Positions 356 through 7,051 of a stretch of 7,113 bases of DNA are shown in pieces. The DNA is taken from the NCBI GenBank assembly GCA_001412365.1, contig LKUE01000354.1:1-7113 (forward strand). Reading direction: 5' to 3'. This DNA is from Desulfuromonas sp. SDB (GTDB lineage Bacteria; SDB-A). Every line of letters starts with the position of its first letter. Positions within the stretch are counted from its first letter, which is position 1. A program made the position numbers and the translations under genes. The notes beneath the pieces were generated by a model, which ran no database searches, was not told the origin of the DNA, and worked only from the letters and a program-made list of their open reading frames with translations.

Positions 356-428
356 GTAAAAGCAGGGAAGTTTATTTTAAAGGTCCCCGCAGTGATTGAC
401 AGGCTTTTTTTCGATTTCCTGCTTTTAC
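356..428 (-). repeat. Inverted repeat spanning the rpe stop codon, possible operon-end stem
   Basis: GTAAAAGCAGGGAA (356-369) and TTTCCTGCTTTTAC (415-428) are reverse complements at 13 of 14 positions. The loop of about 45 nt includes the rpe stop codon. In the minus-strand mRNA the inner arm encodes the V-K-A-G-N stretch near the Rpe C-terminus and the outer arm lies just after the stop. There is no U-run after it, only a pyrimidine-rich stretch, so it could be a processing or stabilising stem and not a terminator. Confidence 0.35.
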
Positions 429-1010
429 CAGATAAGAACCGGAAATTAAATTTTCAATTCCCGCTTGCCTGGCTAAGACCGCAGAGGATTGGTTTATTCC
501 TCCATCAATGTAAAGGGGCAAATCCTTCATCTTCTTAATTTTTGCAACTTTTTCCAGAACCGAACTTATGAATTTCTGCCCTCCGAAACCGGGGTTTACG
601 CTCATAATTAAAACATAGTCAAAATACTGAATAAATGGTTTTAGCTGCTCGCAGTCAGTAGGGGGATTTATAGCAATTCCCGGAATAATCCCTTCTTTTT
701 TTAACTTCTGGCATAATTCCTGGTGATTAACCTTTACTTCAATGTGCCAGGAAATGCGGAATGGTTTAACTTCTACAAACCAGGGAACAACCTGCTGGGG
801 ATTATCCACCATTAAATGAACATCTATCTGCCGTGACCAGGCCTGTTTAACTGTCTTCACCAAATTTGGTCCAAAAGTTAAATTGGGAACAAAATGGCCA
901 TCCATCACATCGTAATGCAGAAAATCAACCCCTGCCTTTTCCAGATCAGTTAATTCATCCTGTAAATGCAGAAGATCAGCTGATAATATTGATGCTCCGA
1001 CTTTTATCAT
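372..1010 (-). CDS. rpe: Ribulose-phosphate 3-epimerase
   Basis: It interconverts D-ribulose-5-phosphate and D-xylulose-5-phosphate in the cytoplasmic pentose phosphate pathway. The 212-residue TIM-barrel has the family motifs in order: SILSAD (7-12), H-Y-D-V-M-D-G-H-F-V-P-N (32-43), HLMV (65-68), GxxxNPPT (111-118), MSVNPGFGGQKF (136-147) and DGGIN (169-173). The expected metal/catalytic residues H32, D34, H65 and D169 are present. I place the start at the ATG at 1008-1010: this gives the usual MIKxxxSILSAD beginning and follows the upstream stop by one base (TAATATG). An in-frame TTG at 1023-1025 would add five residues (a start at 1025, 217 aa) but has no better ribosome-binding site. There is no clear Shine-Dalgarno, so translation is probably coupled to the membrane-protein gene. 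It is the last gene of the operon. Its length is a few residues short of the common 215-225. Confidence 0.95.
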   Translation of the reverse strand: MIKVGASILSADLLHLQDELTDLEKAGVDFLHYDVMDGHFVPNLTFGPNLVKTVKQAWSRQIDVHLMVDNPQQVVPWFVEVKPFRISWHIEVKVNHQELCQKLKKEGIIPGIAINPPTDCEQLKPFIQYFDYVLIMSVNPGFGGQKFISSVLEKVAKIKKMKDLPLYIDGGINQSSAVLARQAGIENLISGSYLVKAGNRKKACQSLRGPLK

Positions 1011-1011
1011 A

Positions 1012-1443
1012 TTATTCAGTGGCAACGGTGAAAAAAGAACTCAGGCTTAAAACTAAATATAAAAACCAGTCTGATTTTAAATTATGCTTGTTAAACCAAA
1101 CCAGAAGACATTGCACAATTACTCCTGTAGTAAATATTCCCAGGCACACCAGGGAAAAAAACATATCAACTTTAATCAGTTTTATGAATGAATTAAAAAT
1201 ACCTAAAAATAAAAAACCGTAAAATATTAAATTTAATTTTGAGGGAGTCTCTCTTTTTTTATCTTCCACATACCTCCAGCTTAGTAAAACTATGGCGAAA
1301 ATTCCAAAGCGGAGAATCAACTGTTTGGTGTAAGTTTCAATGGGAAAATAATTGGTCATTAAAATTGCTGCCAACGCGATAATTCCCACTATTCTGAAAA
1401 TAAAAGAGCTGTCCCGGTTATAAAAAGACTTAGGAGGATTCAT
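1012..1443 (-). CDS. Small membrane protein, function unknown
   Basis: This is a 143-residue protein I do not recognise. It is strongly hydrophobic with about five likely membrane segments near residues 12-33, 41-58, 70-90, 93-117 and 124-141. A short charged loop (EDKKRETPSK, 60-69) separates the second and third, and another (NKHNLKSD, 118-125) the fourth and fifth. No signal peptide cleavage site or catalytic motif is evident. The ATG at 1441-1443 overlaps the end of the pfkB gene by 14 bases, and its stop is one base from the rpe start, so it is cotranslated with its neighbours. Only a weak purine-rich stretch (GGAAAAGA) precedes the start. Position in the operon and gap-free packing argue that it is a real gene. 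Nothing in the sequence ties it to sugar or lipid metabolism in particular. Confidence 0.8.
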   Translation of the reverse strand: MNPPKSFYNRDSSFIFRIVGIIALAAILMTNYFPIETYTKQLILRFGIFAIVLLSWRYVEDKKRETPSKLNLIFYGFLFLGIFNSFIKLIKVDMFFSLVCLGIFTTGVIVQCLLVWFNKHNLKSDWFLYLVLSLSSFFTVATE

Positions 1444-2341
1444 TAAAGATCTTTTCCGCCCGGAGGTCTACCTCTTCTCTGGTGGCAGCAGAAAGTCTGT
1501 CAATGCCAAAGGACTCTACGGAAAGAGAGGCAGTTGCTGTTCCGAAACACATTGCCCTGCACAGAATATCCCATTTAACCTGAGAAGAATTTTCACATTT
1601 TTCTGCCAGATAACCTAAAACCCCCCCTGCAAATGAATCTCCTGCTCCGGTGGTATCCACAACTTTTAAAACAGAGTAAATACCTACTTTATAACAGTTT
1701 TCCGGAGAGTGCAGCTCCGCCCCTCCCTTTCCCTTTTTTACTATTACCAGCTTGCAACCCTGGCTAAAAATTTTATCCAGTGCGGCTTGTTCTTCCTGTT
1801 CATTGGTCAGCTGATATAATTCTTCATTGTTAATCATCATTAAGTTTATTTCGGATAGAACCTGGTAAACTTGTGATGGATTTCCATCAATCCAGAAGTT
1901 CATGGTGTCCATGGCTGAAAAAACATTTTGATCAACCTGCTTTAAAACAGATAACTGCAAAAGTGGTGAAATATTTCCTAAAAAAAGAAAAGGTAAAGCA
2001 GCCCACTTTGAGTCAACTATCGGTTTAAACTGGGCGAAAACTCCCAGGTCGGTTAATACTGTTTCCCGGTAATCCATGTCTTCATGATAAATTCCGCTCC
2101 ACCGGAATGTTTTTCCCGGGGTTCGCACAAAGAATTTTAAATTTATTTTTCTATTTTTCCCCCAGGTTTCCAAGGGATCGGGGAAATCTTCCCCCACTAT
2201 GCAAACCGGGTAAACTTCTGTAAATAGCCCCGCCGCCGATGTAAAATAGGATAATGATCCCCCTACAATATTTTCCGCTTTACCCCACTTGGTTTGTATT
2301 GAATCAAAGGCAACTGAACCCACCGCTAAAATGGGATTCAT
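1430..2341 (-). CDS. PfkB-family (ribokinase-like) carbohydrate kinase, substrate unknown
   Basis: This is a cytoplasmic ATP-dependent kinase of the ribokinase/PfkB fold, 303 residues, normal length for the family. Visible signatures are the N-terminal strand LAVGSVAFDSI (5-15), the substrate-site VGGSLSYF (26-33), the phosphate-gripping VKKGKGGA (201-208), and the C-terminal DTTGAGDSFAGG (229-240), which holds the anion hole and catalytic base D235. NNEE (171-174) matches the usual N-x-x-E motif of the family. The subfamily beginning GSVAFDSI...GKTFRWSG is, as I remember it, widespread in bacteria but annotated only as sugar kinase; the substrate cannot be read from sequence. Neighbours allow two guesses: an inositol or inositol-phosphate kinase (archaeal and plant PfkB members phosphorylate myo-inositol), or a pentose kinase acting with rpe. 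The start is ATG at 2339-2341, sharing one base with the stop of the protease gene (TAATG), with GGAGAG at 2349-2354 seven bases upstream. Confidence 0.88.
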   Translation of the reverse strand: MNPILAVGSVAFDSIQTKWGKAENIVGGSLSYFTSAAGLFTEVYPVCIVGEDFPDPLETWGKNRKINLKFFVRTPGKTFRWSGIYHEDMDYRETVLTDLGVFAQFKPIVDSKWAALPFLFLGNISPLLQLSVLKQVDQNVFSAMDTMNFWIDGNPSQVYQVLSEINLMMINNEELYQLTNEQEEQAALDKIFSQGCKLVIVKKGKGGAELHSPENCYKVGIYSVLKVVDTTGAGDSFAGGVLGYLAEKCENSSQVKWDILCRAMCFGTATASLSVESFGIDRLSAATREEVDLRAEKIFNESS

Positions 2342-3978
2342 TAATATTCTCTCCGAATGCTGTCCTCATAAGCCATGGCAGTGGAGTCTATAACTTGCCA
2401 TTCCGGATGTTGATTAGCTATTTCAAAAATTTCCAAAGGCTGTTCAACCAGTTGTAAAAGATTTACTGCTATCTCCAGTTCTTCATCAGTTTTAAGTGAC
2501 TGTATGTATCTTCCCTTTGAACCAAAAGCTGCATTGGCGATGGAAATTTCCAGTTGACGGATAATTCTATCCTGGATGAAAGGAGAAATGGTGTCTGAAA
2601 CTTCAATATCGGTTAACTGGACTTCGGTTATGAAGTCATAATAATCAGCAGGAGAGATGGAAATATCATCTAAATCCACTGGTTGGTTTAAAATGTAATC
2701 ACGGGCATAGGTAAAGTAAAGTCCCTCGCTTAAAATTGAAGTTTCCAGGGGAGATAACAATGCGCTGTAATACAGAAAATCAGGATAAATGCCCCCTCCC
2801 CCGTAAACCTCTCTGGTTAGAGGTCCGATGGTGGTAAAAGGCCCTGAATCAGCAATTTCCACATTATCTTCTCTCTGCAGCCTGGTGCGGGTATGACCGG
2901 CATCTATTAGCCGTCCGGAAGGAGTGTAATATCTGCTGGTAGTTAATTTTATTGCACCTAAATGACCCCGGTCTAGAGGAAATATACTTTGCACTGAGCC
3001 TTTGCCATAGGAGCGGGAACCGATAATTAAACCCCTGTCGTGATCCTGAATTGCTCCTCCTACAATTTCGGAGGCAGATGCGCTGCTGAAATTAAGCAAC
3101 AGGATCAACGGCTGTTCCGGACAAATGGGTTGTTTCTCGGCAAAGAAACGATTACTTCCGGTTCTACCGTTGGTCTTTACAATGGTTGCCCCTTTGGGTA
3201 GAAAATTGTTGGCTACATCAATTGCTTCCCTCAGCAATCCTCCCGGGTTGCCCCGCAGGTCTAATATGAATTTTTCCGCTCCCAGATTGATCAGTGAATC
3301 TAAAGCTCCCTCCACTTCTTCTCCGGCATTCTGGTAGAAGTTGGATAGTCGTATATATCCAATATTGGTGCCGGGTATTATTCCGGCAAAGGGAACACTG
3401 TGAATACTGATTACTTCCCTGGTTATAGTTATTTCCTGAGGCTGCTCATGTCCGGGGTGTAAAACTAAAATAACCACATCTGTTCCCGGGGCTCCTCTTA
3501 ACTTCTGAACTGCTTCCTCGGTAGTTATTCCTTCAGTGCTTTCTCCATCTATCTCCAGGATAATATCTCCGGAAACTAAACCGGCTCTTTCTGCAGGAGT
3601 ATTTTCTATGGGCGCGATTACCGTCAGTTGATCTCCCCGAAGACCAATTTCAATGCCCAAACCTCCAAATGATCCCGAGGTGTTCTCTCTCAGCCGAGCA
3701 TATTCAGTTGAATCAATGTACACGCTGTAGGGATCCAGCTCTTCCAGCATTCCATTTACCGACGCTTCAATCAGCTCCTGAACTTCAACATTGGTCACAT
3801 AGTTGGATAAAATTATATTCAGAGAGGAGGCGAAAAATTCAAGTTCCTCATGAATATTAGCAGGGCTGCTGGAAACCGGATTTCTCAAACCCTGAGCAAT
3901 TAAACCTAAAGAAGTGCCTACAAAGGCACTGAAAAAGGTCATTATTACAATGACCAGGATAAATTGTTTTCTTGTCAT
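2341..3978 (-). CDS. ctpA: C-terminal processing peptidase (S41 family) with PDZ domain
   Basis: This is a serine protease of the Tsp/CtpA/CtpB type that trims or degrades exported proteins at their C-termini, outside the inner membrane. The 545-residue product has an N-terminal signal or anchor helix (5-28), a helical region (43-95), a PDZ domain around 103-185 (GGLGIEI; GLVSGDIILEIDG), then the protease core. The catalytic set is visible with the spacing known from E. coli Tsp (Ser430, Asp441, Lys455): S301 in SSASASEI, D312 in AIQDH, K326 in YGKGSVQ. Residues 352-359 (TPSGRLID) are the conserved strand after the active site. A tail of about 150 residues (395-545) has no motif I recognise. 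I chose the ATG at 3976-3978 because GGGGAGGT sits 4 nt upstream; the in-frame ATG at 4009-4011 would add 11 residues before the hydrophobic helix, has no ribosome-binding site and overlaps tmk. The symbol is a family-level label. Confidence 0.92.
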   Translation of the reverse strand: MTRKQFILVIVIMTFFSAFVGTSLGLIAQGLRNPVSSSPANIHEELEFFASSLNIILSNYVTNVEVQELIEASVNGMLEELDPYSVYIDSTEYARLRENTSGSFGGLGIEIGLRGDQLTVIAPIENTPAERAGLVSGDIILEIDGESTEGITTEEAVQKLRGAPGTDVVILVLHPGHEQPQEITITREVISIHSVPFAGIIPGTNIGYIRLSNFYQNAGEEVEGALDSLINLGAEKFILDLRGNPGGLLREAIDVANNFLPKGATIVKTNGRTGSNRFFAEKQPICPEQPLILLLNFSSASASEIVGGAIQDHDRGLIIGSRSYGKGSVQSIFPLDRGHLGAIKLTTSRYYTPSGRLIDAGHTRTRLQREDNVEIADSGPFTTIGPLTREVYGGGGIYPDFLYYSALLSPLETSILSEGLYFTYARDYILNQPVDLDDISISPADYYDFITEVQLTDIEVSDTISPFIQDRIIRQLEISIANAAFGSKGRYIQSLKTDEELEIAVNLLQLVEQPLEIFEIANQHPEWQVIDSTAMAYEDSIRREY

Positions 3979-3996
3979 ATTTACCTCCCCAGAGGT
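3976..3996 (-). promoter_or_regulatory. Ribosome-binding site of the S41 protease gene, inside a small hairpin
   Basis: On the minus strand, GGGGAGGT (3990-3983) precedes the ATG at 3978-3976 by four bases, the best Shine-Dalgarno in the window. It decides the protease start. ACCTC (3996-3992) and GAGGT (3987-3983) are exact complements around TGGG, so the site can fold into a 5-bp stem that hides it. The stem starts one base after the tmk stop codon (4000-3998), so a ribosome finishing tmk would cover and open it. Confidence 0.55.
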
Positions 3997-3997
3997 T

Positions 3998-4645
3998 TTA
4001 TTTATGGGCATGGTTGTTTTGTTTATTCCCTTTCAGTTGAGGTAATAAATTGGAAATTTTATTAATAATTATCTGATGTATTTTTTCAGGAGGGCGGGAT
4101 GCGTCAACCATATAGATTCGATCAGGATACTGTCTGGATAACTTTTTATATGCTGCCCGGACCTTTAAATGAAAATCAATATTTTCTCTTTCAATCCGGT
4201 CTTTCTTATAGCCTATTCTCTGTAATCCGATTTCCGGATCGAAGTCTAGTAAAAAGGTGACATCTGGCGACAATCCCTTGGTAGCCAGAGCATTAACTTC
4301 ATTGATGATCTTTTCCGGCAAACCCCTTCCCGCCACCTGATAGGCAATGGTGGATTCAGAATAGCGGTCGGCAATTACAATTTTATTTGATTCCAGGGCG
4401 GGAATTATGGTGTAGATGGTGTTTTGTGAGCGGCTGGCTAAGTACAGAAATAATTCAGTATAAGGGGCAAGCTTAAATTTGTTTTCCAGAAGAATTTCTC
4501 TGATTTTTTCACCTGCTTCTGTTCCCCCCGGTTCTTTGGTTAGTAAGGTTTTAAATCCTTTGTCTATTAAGTAATTATTTAAAAGGTGGACTTGGGTAGA
4601 TTTTCCGCTACCTTCAACCCCTTCAAAGGATATAAACAAAGACAT
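3998..4645 (-). CDS. tmk: Thymidylate kinase
   Basis: It phosphorylates dTMP to dTDP with ATP, an essential cytoplasmic step to dTTP. The 215-residue protein has the full bacterial pattern: P-loop GVEGSGKS (9-16) after FISFE, EPGGT (38-42), the DRY motif (93-95) in IVIADRYSEST, SPDVTFLLDF (126-135), and a LID region KKDRIERE (147-154). Length is normal (200-215), with a short hydrophilic C-terminal tail ending HAHK. The ATG at 4643-4645 lies one base past the stop of the inositol-phosphate synthase gene (TAATATG). The preceding bases are only A/G-rich (from the lysine codons) without a clear Shine-Dalgarno, which suggests coupled translation. The stop at 3998-4000 is immediately followed by the protease gene's ribosome-binding hairpin. 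Confidence 0.97.
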   Translation of the reverse strand: MSLFISFEGVEGSGKSTQVHLLNNYLIDKGFKTLLTKEPGGTEAGEKIREILLENKFKLAPYTELFLYLASRSQNTIYTIIPALESNKIVIADRYSESTIAYQVAGRGLPEKIINEVNALATKGLSPDVTFLLDFDPEIGLQRIGYKKDRIERENIDFHLKVRAAYKKLSRQYPDRIYMVDASRPPEKIHQIIINKISNLLPQLKGNKQNNHAHK

Positions 4646-4646
4646 A

Positions 4647-5768
4647 TTATTTTTTCTTCTTAGGAGTCGCCTTGGGCGAACCTTGAGTCTGCTGGTATTT
4701 CTTTATGAAATCTTCCGTTTTATTTTTACAAATGCTGTCTGGATATTGTTTGGGGGGTGACTTCATAAAATAAGAGGAAGGCTCAATTAATGGACCTGAA
4801 ATTTTATGATCTTTAGCTAATTTAATGCATCTTACTGCGTCAATAATTACCCCTGCTGAGTTAGGAGAGTCCCACACTTCTAATTTTAATTCTAAATTTA
4901 AGGGAACATCGCCAAAGGTATTTCCTTCCATCCTGATGTAACACCACTTACGGTCTTTTAGCCAGGGAATGTAATCAGAAGGTCCAATGTGGATGTTTTC
5001 TTCAGGCATTTTAAAAGGAAGTAAGGATGTAACTGCCTGGGTTTTTGACACTTTCTTTGAATTCAGTCTTTCTCTTTCCAGCATATTCAAAAAGTCAGTG
5101 TTCCCTCCCACATTTAGTTGGAAAGTTTTTTCAATATCTACTCCCCGGTCTAAAAACAACTGGGTTAATACCCGGTGGGTAATGGTAGCTCCAACTTGAC
5201 TTTTAATGTCGTCACCAATTATTGGTTGACCTGCGTCTCTAAATCTCTTTGCCCAGTAGTCCGAGGTTGCAATAAATACGGGAATAGCATTTATCATTCC
5301 GACTCCCGCAGTCAATATCTGTTCTACATACCATTTAGTCGCTTCTTCTGAACCTACCGGAAGATAGCTTATTACCACATCGGTTCCTGTTTCCTTAAGA
5401 ATCTTAACCACATCATCAGTTGGACCGGGGGCTTTTTTCACAATATCTTTCAGGTATTTTCCAATGCCGTCATGGGTCATCCCCCGGGATACTTGTATCC
5501 CTAGATTTGGAACATCGGTAAATTTATAGGTATTGTTAGGATAGGCAAAAATTGCCTCGGAAAGATCTTTTCCCACTTTTCCCTGAACCACATCAAAGGC
5601 ACAGGAAAATTCGATGTCACTAATATGGTATCCTCCGAGATTGACATGCATTAATCCCGGAATACGGTCAGTTTCTTTTGCATTTCGATAGTAATGAACT
5701 CCCTGAACAAACGAAGAAGCACAGTTACCGACGCCAATAATTCCAACTCTAACTTTCTTGTTGGCCAT
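4647..5768 (-). CDS. ino1: Inositol-3-phosphate synthase (MIPS)
   Basis: This NAD-dependent cytoplasmic enzyme cyclises glucose-6-phosphate to myo-inositol 3-phosphate (L-myo-inositol 1-phosphate), the only known de novo entry to inositol. The 373 residues match the short bacterial/archaeal form (the mycobacterial enzyme is about 367), not the ~510-residue eukaryotic one. Landmarks: Rossmann glycine motif [12 protein letters not shown] (9-20), [10 protein letters not shown] (134-143), NAIPVFIA (160-167), the core active-site stretch [17 protein letters not shown] (185-201), [11 protein letters not shown] (219-229), [10 protein letters not shown] (237-246), [13 protein letters not shown] (262-274) and [11 protein letters not shown] (296-306). 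The C-terminus is a lysine-rich tail (TPKKKK). The ATG at 5766-5768 has AGGAGGG four bases upstream (5773-5779), lying within the last codons of the CDP-alcohol transferase gene, which it overlaps by 20 bases. That overlap ties the two enzymes to inositol phospholipid synthesis. The symbol ino1 is the usual functional name. Confidence 0.95.
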
Positions 5769-6378
5769 TTTTCCCTCCTGCAGAAATAATTCCTTTAATT
5801 TTAAAAAATCTTTCTATTGATGTAATCAATGTAAAAACCAATAATAGTAATATTCCCCAATACAGGAAATATTTACCCAGTAGAAGTATGACTGTCAACC
5901 AGATAACTCTTTCCGGTCGGGAGAAGAAACCACCTTTAAATTTGTATTTTAAACCTTCAGCTCTTGCTTTTACATAACTTGTGAATAACGAGCAAAATAA
6001 TACCCCAAAAGAAACTAAAATAAAAGTATTTTTCTTAAAGGGTGTCCATGCGGATAGAAAAATTGCCCAATATACTAAACTGGCTAAAATAATAAATTCA
6101 CTTATCCGATCTAAGCTTGAATCTAAAAAAGCTCCAAAATCGCTTTGTTTATTTGAGTACCGGGCTAAAGAGCCGTCCAAGGTATCGAAAATGCTGGCAA
6201 GTATTAATACTACCGCTCCCAGTCTTAAATACCCAAAGCAGAGAAGAACTGCAGATAGCAGGGTAATGAGCAGACCGGTTAAAGTTAAGCCAAGAGGGGT
6301 TATACCCAGTTTGGACATTGTTTTTATAATAGGAGTTAAAATCTTTCTAAAAAATAGAGCTAGTTTATCAGGGATCAT
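5749..6378 (-). CDS. CDP-alcohol phosphatidyltransferase, probable phosphatidylinositol-phosphate synthase
   Basis: This inner-membrane enzyme is expected to transfer a phosphatidyl (or analogous lipid) group from a CDP-lipid to inositol phosphate, giving phosphatidylinositol phosphate. The 209 residues hold the complete family signature: D65-x-x-D68-G69-x-x-A72-R73, eight residues, then G82-x-x-x-D86-x-x-x-D90; the four aspartates bind metal. Hydrophobic segments near 30-50, 52-64, 92-112, 118-134, 158-172 and 174-187 suggest about six helices. Two features favour the inositol-phosphate subfamily (mycobacterial PgsA1, archaetidylinositol-phosphate synthase) over PgsA or Pss[11 protein letters not shown] (134-143) and RPER (154-157) in [10 protein letters not shown]. 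The overlap with the inositol-3-phosphate synthase gene supports this. It lacks the fused cytidylyltransferase domain found in di-myo-inositol-phosphate phosphate synthases. The ATG at 6376-6378 is four bases past the rsmI stop and has no strong ribosome-binding site. The lipid donor is not known. Confidence 0.88.
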
Positions 6379-6382
6379 AATA

Positions 6383-7051
6383 TCACTTGTCTTTTATAAT
6401 TAGTACAATTTCTCCTTTAGGTTTTGTTTTAAAATGGTCAATCAAAAAACCTGCGGTTCCCTGTAAAAATTCTTCATAATATTTGGTAATTTCCCTGCCC
6501 ATGAATAAATTTCTGTTTTGGTCTAAACTTTTTATTACTTCCAGGGTATCAATTATCCGCTGGGGGGACTCAAATATAATTACGGTTATATCATAATTGA
6601 GAAGTTGCTGCAGTTTGTTTTTTTTCTTGTTTTTTTTTCGGGGGAGGAAACCGCAAAATAAAAATGTATCTGTAGCTGAACCGGAAGCGGTTAGTGCGGC
6701 TAAAATACTGGAAGGACCGGGAATGGGAATTACTGAAATATTATTTTTAATTGCTTCTCTAACTAAATACAAGCCGGGATCGGAGATGGAAGGAGTTCCT
6801 GCATCGGAAACCAAAGCTACATCCCCCTGTTCAATTATATGCTTTATTATCTGGGGAGTTTTCCTGGTTTTGTTTATATCATTATAACTGGTGGTTTTAT
6901 TGGTCAGGTTGTAGTGATTTAATAAAATCCTGGTGGTGCGGGTATCTTCGCAGGCAATCAGCGAAACTTGTTCCAGCACTTCCAATGCGCGCAGGGTGAT
7001 ATCCTTTAAATTTCCAATGGGAGTACTAACCAAATAAAGGGCATTATTCAT
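6383..7051 (-). CDS. rsmI: 16S rRNA (cytidine-1402 2'-O)-methyltransferase
   Basis: It uses S-adenosylmethionine to methylate the ribose of C1402 in the decoding centre of 16S rRNA. The 222-residue tetrapyrrole-methylase fold shows all landmarks: LVSTPIGNL (7-15), ACEDTRTT (33-40), SDAGTPSISDPG (82-93), PIPGPSS (109-115), FCGFLPRK (132-139), ESPQRI (161-166), REITKYYEE (186-194) and KGEIVLII (212-219). It ends just after the core fold; the E. coli and B. subtilis proteins (about 286-292 residues) carry an extra C-terminal domain that is absent here, a form I believe is common in other phyla. Residues 138-146 are nearly all lysine and asparagine, encoded by two long A runs (T8 at 6618-6625 and T9 at 6630-6638 on the plus strand). 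The ATG at 7049-7051 overlaps the stop of the upstream gene by 8 bases and has no clear Shine-Dalgarno. Confidence 0.95.
   Translation of the reverse strand: MNNALYLVSTPIGNLKDITLRALEVLEQVSLIACEDTRTTRILLNHYNLTNKTTSYNDINKTRKTPQIIKHIIEQGDVALVSDAGTPSISDPGLYLVREAIKNNISVIPIPGPSSILAALTASGSATDTFLFCGFLPRKKNKKKNKLQQLLNYDITVIIFESPQRIIDTLEVIKSLDQNRNLFMGREITKYYEEFLQGTAGFLIDHFKTKPKGEIVLIIKDK

Follow-up and report, generated by a model that had tools for sequence, protein, structure and literature searches.

A putative inositol-phospholipid gene pair within a conserved core-gene operon of a bacterial family

Two overlapping genes of the bacterial genome G000 encode what is probably a two-step route to inositol phospholipids built on bacterial CDP-diacylglycerol, with phosphatidylinositol or its phosphate, PI(P), as the probable main and possibly the only phospholipid; we put the probability of this reading at about 0.8. 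The enzymes are an inositol-3-phosphate synthase (INO1) and a CDP-alcohol phosphotransferase (CDP-AP) of the phosphatidylinositol phosphate synthase (PIPS) type, and sequence comparison together with a predicted structure makes us highly confident of both identities. The window, the whole stretch of DNA that was analysed, is the entire 7,113-bp contig C354 of G000, a genome of 3.14 Mb in 433 contigs that is 98.7% complete and 3.9% contaminated. All eight genes of the window are tightly packed on the minus strand, in the order rsmI, PIPS, INO1, tmk, S41 peptidase, pfkB kinase, small open reading frame and rpe:

6383-7051, minus strand: rsmI, 16S rRNA (cytidine1402-2'-O)-methyltransferase, next gene upstream (246 bits against TIGR00096, above the cut-off)
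5749-6378, minus strand: PIPS-type CDP-alcohol phosphotransferase, 209 aa (NCBIfam profiles, motif, pocket residues, predicted fold)
4647-5768, minus strand: INO1/MIPS inositol-3-phosphate synthase of the TIGR03450 type, 373 aa (TIGR03450, PDB 1gr0)
3998-4645, minus strand: tmk, dTMP kinase, next gene downstream (180 bits against TIGR00041, above the cut-off)
2341-4011, minus strand: S41 C-terminal processing peptidase with PDZ, part of the operon (291 bits against TIGR00225, above the cut-off)
1430-2341, minus strand: PfkB-family sugar kinase, operon member (PF00294, E=2e-20)
1012-1443, minus strand: 143-aa open reading frame with hydrophobic stretches (no family match)
372-1025, minus strand: rpe, ribulose-phosphate 3-epimerase, end of the conserved run (TIGR01163, 233 bits, over cut-off)

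Five junctions between these genes are overlaps and two are gaps of at most 4 bp, so the eight genes are likely to be carried on one transcript. The PIPS and INO1 genes share 20 bp (5749-5768), and the AGGAGG ribosome-binding site of INO1 sits within the end of the PIPS coding sequence. The coordinates, the 20-base overlap and the rsmI and tmk flanks given in a preliminary description of this DNA all agree with the open reading frame positions. The 143-aa open reading frame has a counterpart in the same place in one relative (L026), with 32% identity.

The INO1 protein scores 535.6 bits against TIGR03450 (E=6e-161; curated cut-off 638), matches the inositol-3-phosphate synthase structure 1gr0 with E=4e-147, and has a PF01658 match over the cut-off. 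The inositol-3-phosphate synthase named in the preliminary description is thus upheld by both TIGR03450 and 1gr0.

The transferase matches the Pfam family CDP-OH_P_transf with E=1e-14. Its NCBIfam scores are 134.8 bits for archaetidylinositol phosphate synthase (AIPS; cut-off 180), 132.4 bits for PIPS (cut-off 170), 106.9 bits for the Bacteroides PIPS profile PIPSynBT1523, 33.6 bits for PgsA (TIGR00560; cut-off 109) and 32.6 bits for PssA (TIGR00473; cut-off 107), which places the PIPS profiles about 100 bits ahead of those of PgsA and PssA. The 170-bit PIPS cut-off is an annotation threshold rather than a biochemical feature, and the other PIPS-like proteins scored, at most 148 bits, also fall under it. 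The preliminary description had assigned the transferase to the inositol-phosphate subfamily and proposed a phylogeny as a check. In a tree of 42 rows, in which the reference PIPS rows are the aligned parts from the PDB search, the transferase lies outside both the PgsA-like and the PssA-like clades (support 100/100 each). The window family forms a clade of its own (98/93), the solved PIPS form another (100/96), and the tree gives the window family no clear nearest neighbour among the PIPS-like rows.

The CDP-AP motif of the transferase is complete (D65xxD68G69xxA72R73...G82xxxD86xxxD90). The roles of the residues of the inositol-phosphate pocket are taken from published work (PMC6506517, PMC4634129). 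In the alignment, R94, S132, Y133, K135, R137, R152, P153, R155 and R195 of Mycobacterium tuberculosis (Mtb) PgsA1 are all kept in the transferase, where the pocket is composed of R91, S134, Y135, K137, R139, R154, P155, R157 and R190. Six PgsA-like rows have, in Mtb numbering, K at R94, T or M at S132, I or L at R137, T at R155 and K or R at R195; at K135 they carry R, as do many PIPS. Six PssA-like rows lack nearly all residues of the pocket. Mtb D31 forms a bond with the amine of cytidine; at its position the transferase has L29, and the three relatives have D.

An AlphaFold model of the transferase, calculated from a 13-sequence alignment, has a pLDDT of 91.4. In a fold search of the PDB with this model, ranks 1-13 are all PIPS (best 6wmv, 6h59 and 6h5a, TM up to 0.79). 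They are followed by AF2299 and IPCT-DIPPS (4o6m, 4mnd), members of the same superfamily with a weaker match (TM about 0.75). PgsA, first seen at rank 20, and PSS are absent from the top 19 ranks and reach a TM of only about 0.5. Profile, tree, fold match and pocket residues thus agree with the proposed subfamily in pointing to a PIPS. The assignment of the transferase as PgsA or PssA, an outcome that the preliminary description had named as refuting it, was ruled out by the profiles, the separate clades, the predicted fold and the pocket residues.

The genomes G001, G002 and G003 belong to the same family as G000, and these four constitute the whole phylum in the genome set examined. One relative (L026) is candidate division WOR-3 bacterium Zod_Metabat.185; the division is now listed by NCBI as Caldifarciminota, and the taxonomy of the genome set may use another name. 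The order rsmI-PIPS-INO1-tmk is kept in all four family genomes, and the window proteins are 83-85% (INO1) and 47-48% (PIPS) identical to those of the three others. The full order from tmk through rpe, compared in one relative (L026), is identical to that of the window. In other families, G071 (L098, G071:C1:105000-122000) has rsmI-PIPS-INO1-tmk-S41 in the same order with an INO1 that is 68% identical, the stretch read in G028 (L099) shows rsmI-PIPS-tmk-S41 and lacks INO1, and in G101 (L100) rsmI is followed by PIPS and then S41. Judged from these gene orders, the rsmI-PIPS-INO1-tmk arrangement is not due to chance, because it recurs in the three other family genomes on longer contigs (45.6, 55 and 80.6 kb). 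The earlier observation that the pair sits in a core operon therefore extends to all four family genomes and to G071; since the placement recurs in other genomes, it is no peculiarity of G000, and common ancestry would be its simplest reading.

An origin of the short contig from contamination was ruled out, because its gene order and tree placement match the longer contigs of the three relatives and its G+C content matches that of other contigs of G000.

The rest of the lipid pathway was sought in the family genomes by family profile searches, in which absence is judged by homology only and which divergent enzymes can escape. A search with PF01066 yields a single protein per family genome. The PgsA profile TIGR00560, with matches considered down to E=10, recovers that protein alone in each genome and no PgsA. 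NF045883 finds PIPS alone in G000, G001 and G002, and a second protein in G003. This second protein (L091, 1465-2106, minus strand) is a CDP-AP-like protein of 213 aa that scores 79 bits against AIPS, and two of its four motif aspartates are, in our reading, apparently replaced. Beside it lie one gene that resembles acyl-activating enzymes or acyltransferases and another that resembles methyltransferases. As this protein escaped PF01066, a Pfam search used by itself may overlook some CDP-APs; by these profiles, the state of a single CDP-AP holds for G000, G001 and G002 and is qualified for G003.

PS decarboxylase was searched for in all four family genomes and was not found. Nor was a phosphatidylinositol phosphate phosphatase, which the preliminary description had suggested looking for: the search for the PgpA type returned no PF04608 match over the cut-off in the four genomes. 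CdsA is present in G000, G001 and G002, the three genomes searched for it, and PlsY in all four, with GpsA adjoining PlsY in G000. PLD-domain matches occur in all four family genomes; the three in G000 (two single-domain proteins, one helicase-like) and one of two in G001 were inspected, and no cardiolipin synthase was found among these. Their highest scores are to the nuclease NucT, the DISARM protein DrmC, an anti-phage PLD model or HerA, in every case under the curated cut-off. Two of them also touch cardiolipin-synthase models, with scores far short of the cut-offs (no more than 35 of 290 bits for TIGR04265 and 47.6 of 281 for ClsB). A PLD-type cardiolipin synthase was rejected for all four proteins, as nuclease and defence families match better. 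A DrmC-like PLD protein of G000 (L049, 569-1033, minus strand; 100 of 133 bits) lies by a 410-aa open reading frame in a possible defence locus.

Lgt is present in G000, G001 and G002, and was looked for but not found in G003. Of the lipid donors tried with Escherichia coli Lgt, PG gave the highest activity (PMC4728403). The family Lgt proteins (L065, L066, L067) have YGGL where E. coli has HGGL. In E. coli, the H103Y change in this motif did not complement (PMC4728403).

Among 112 sampled genomes of other families, exactly one PF01066 match was found in 11 and none in 11; all 14 control genomes match. Searching all 11 one-match genomes with the PIPS profile identified a PIPS-type protein (131-145 bits) in three of them (G071, G101 and G115), the remaining eight scoring at most 44 bits. 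The genomes with no PF01066 match (G007, G016, G018, G019, G038, G048, G061, G067, G078, G084 and G112) are 94-100% complete, except for G084 (86%). PgsA and PIPS profiles also gave nothing significant in G007, G016, G018 and G019. These no-match genomes call for caution, since they must either use other routes or have been falsely scored as negative. On the evidence of PF01066 and the PIPS profile, the PIPS-only state appears uncommon, yet not unique to the phylum.

The PIP synthase of actinobacteria (PgsA1; 6h53, 6h59, 6wmv; RsPIPS 5d92) shares with the window enzyme the fold, the CDP-AP motif and the inositol-phosphate pocket, and its INO1 partner is of the same type. The identity between the window PIPS and the mycobacterial and actinobacterial enzymes is about 30%, with L29 in place of D31. 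Unlike in these bacteria, no acyltransferase or glycosyltransferase gene lies beside PIPS in the window. M. tuberculosis has further CDP-APs besides PgsA1, so that several stand against the single one, PIPS, found in G000. Other PIPS neighbourhoods were seen outside the family. In a Chloroflexi metagenome-assembled genome (L029, 3233-6204), INO1, a GT4-type glycosyltransferase and PIPS are consecutive, upstream of an adenylosuccinate-synthetase-like gene. In G115 (L069), the PIPS gene has a PHP-domain-like gene on one side and, on the other, an acyltransferase-like gene and then a GT4-like gene (names from sequence reading), an arrangement that recalls the actinobacterial PIM cluster.

In Bacteroides thetaiotaomicron (BT_1522-1526; PMC9246714), the MIPS and PIPS genes are close to each other and serve a two-step PIP route, as proposed for the window. 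The B. thetaiotaomicron genes form a dedicated inositol-lipid cluster that includes a PgpA-like PIP phosphatase (BT_1525), whereas the window genes belong to a core-gene operon and no such phosphatase was found in the family. The PIPSynBT1523 profile scores the window PIPS lower (107 bits) than do the PIPS and AIPS profiles.

We infer the reaction products and the phosphatase step of the window route as follows. INO1 would convert glucose-6-phosphate to inositol-3-phosphate. PIPS, whose four aspartates would coordinate divalent metal, would replace the CMP group of CDP-diacylglycerol with inositol phosphate, yielding phosphatidylinositol phosphate (PIP), which a phosphatase would convert to phosphatidylinositol (PI). 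The CDP-diacylglycerol would be supplied by the glycerol-3-phosphate route (GpsA, PlsY, CdsA) encoded elsewhere in the genome. We further infer that most of the phospholipid is probably PI(P), because PgsA, PS decarboxylase, cardiolipin synthase and a second CDP-AP were not found in G000. The preliminary description had proposed a standard membrane component, and this suggestion gains strength from the finding of no CDP-AP other than PIPS in the genome. That PI(P) is the only phospholipid is a tentative extension, to which we give somewhat less than an even chance. In that case the donor for Lgt would have to be PI(P) or some other lipid. Several points weigh against the proposed reading: PIPS and INO1 score under their curated cut-offs, L29 stands where Mtb has D31, the search for a PIP phosphatase of the PgpA type found none, divergent enzymes can escape the profile searches, and Lgt is present in three of the four genomes.

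The strongest competitor is that PI is one of several phospholipids: PG or PE would be produced by a divergent PGP synthase or another route, and the inositol lipid would serve as an accessory or anchor. We regard this as a real possibility, although short of an even bet. The presence of Lgt would fit it, as would the second divergent CDP-AP-like protein of G003 that escaped the Pfam search and the 11 of 112 other-family genomes without a PF01066 match. However, PF01066, TIGR00560 (to E=10) and NF045883 each find one protein in G000, G001 and G002, none of the four genomes yielded a PS decarboxylase, all 14 controls match PF01066, and the extra G003 protein apparently lacks two of the four motif aspartates. 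Alternatively, a promiscuous sole enzyme might also form phosphatidylglycerol phosphate from glycerol-3-phosphate, which would account for a single CDP-AP being found alongside Lgt; the full inositol-phosphate pocket, which differs from the PgsA-like rows at R94, S132, Y133, R137, R152, P153 and R155 (Mtb), makes this unlikely.

Two further readings appear highly improbable. The transferase might be an archaetidylinositol-phosphate synthase acting on archaeal-type CDP-archaeol, given that the AIPS profile (NF040950) is its best single match, by 2 bits over PIPS. Unlike the setting of that enzyme, however, G000 has the bacterial glycerol-3-phosphate acyl route, with PlsY and GpsA for fatty-acyl lipids and a CdsA-type cytidylyltransferase. 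Equally, inositol phosphate might mainly serve a soluble solute or thiol such as di-inositol phosphate or mycothiol, as the INO1 profile is of the mycothiol/actinobacterial type. Against this use, INO1 overlaps the PIPS gene in a conserved order, and a separate DIPPS-type CDP-AP was not found. The bifunctional IPCT-DIPPS enzyme includes a CDP-AP domain, and the sole CDP-AP found here is the 209-aa PIPS, which, unlike IPCT-DIPPS, has no cytidylyltransferase domain. A dedicated di-inositol-phosphate route, which the preliminary description had named as one case that would overturn its proposal, is therefore unlikely.

The inositol-phospholipid route thus remains our preferred reading. Among bacterial phospholipids PG is very common (PMC9385802), and the production of inositol lipids in bacteria has been described as relatively rare (PMC9246714). 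Our literature search returned nothing on WOR-3 with phosphatidylinositol or on Lgt with phosphatidylinositol and, judging by titles, nothing relevant on PI as the sole phospholipid. We speculate, at less than even odds, that a phylum-level lineage, together with a few others, has inositol as its sole phospholipid head group and makes no PG, PE or cardiolipin, and that its Lgt takes diacylglycerol from an inositol lipid. The presence of Lgt with no recognisable PG synthase raises the question of the lipid donor. If the speculation holds, inositol lipids would be able to replace PG and PE in a bacterial lineage, and the lipid donor for lipoproteins would become a testable question.
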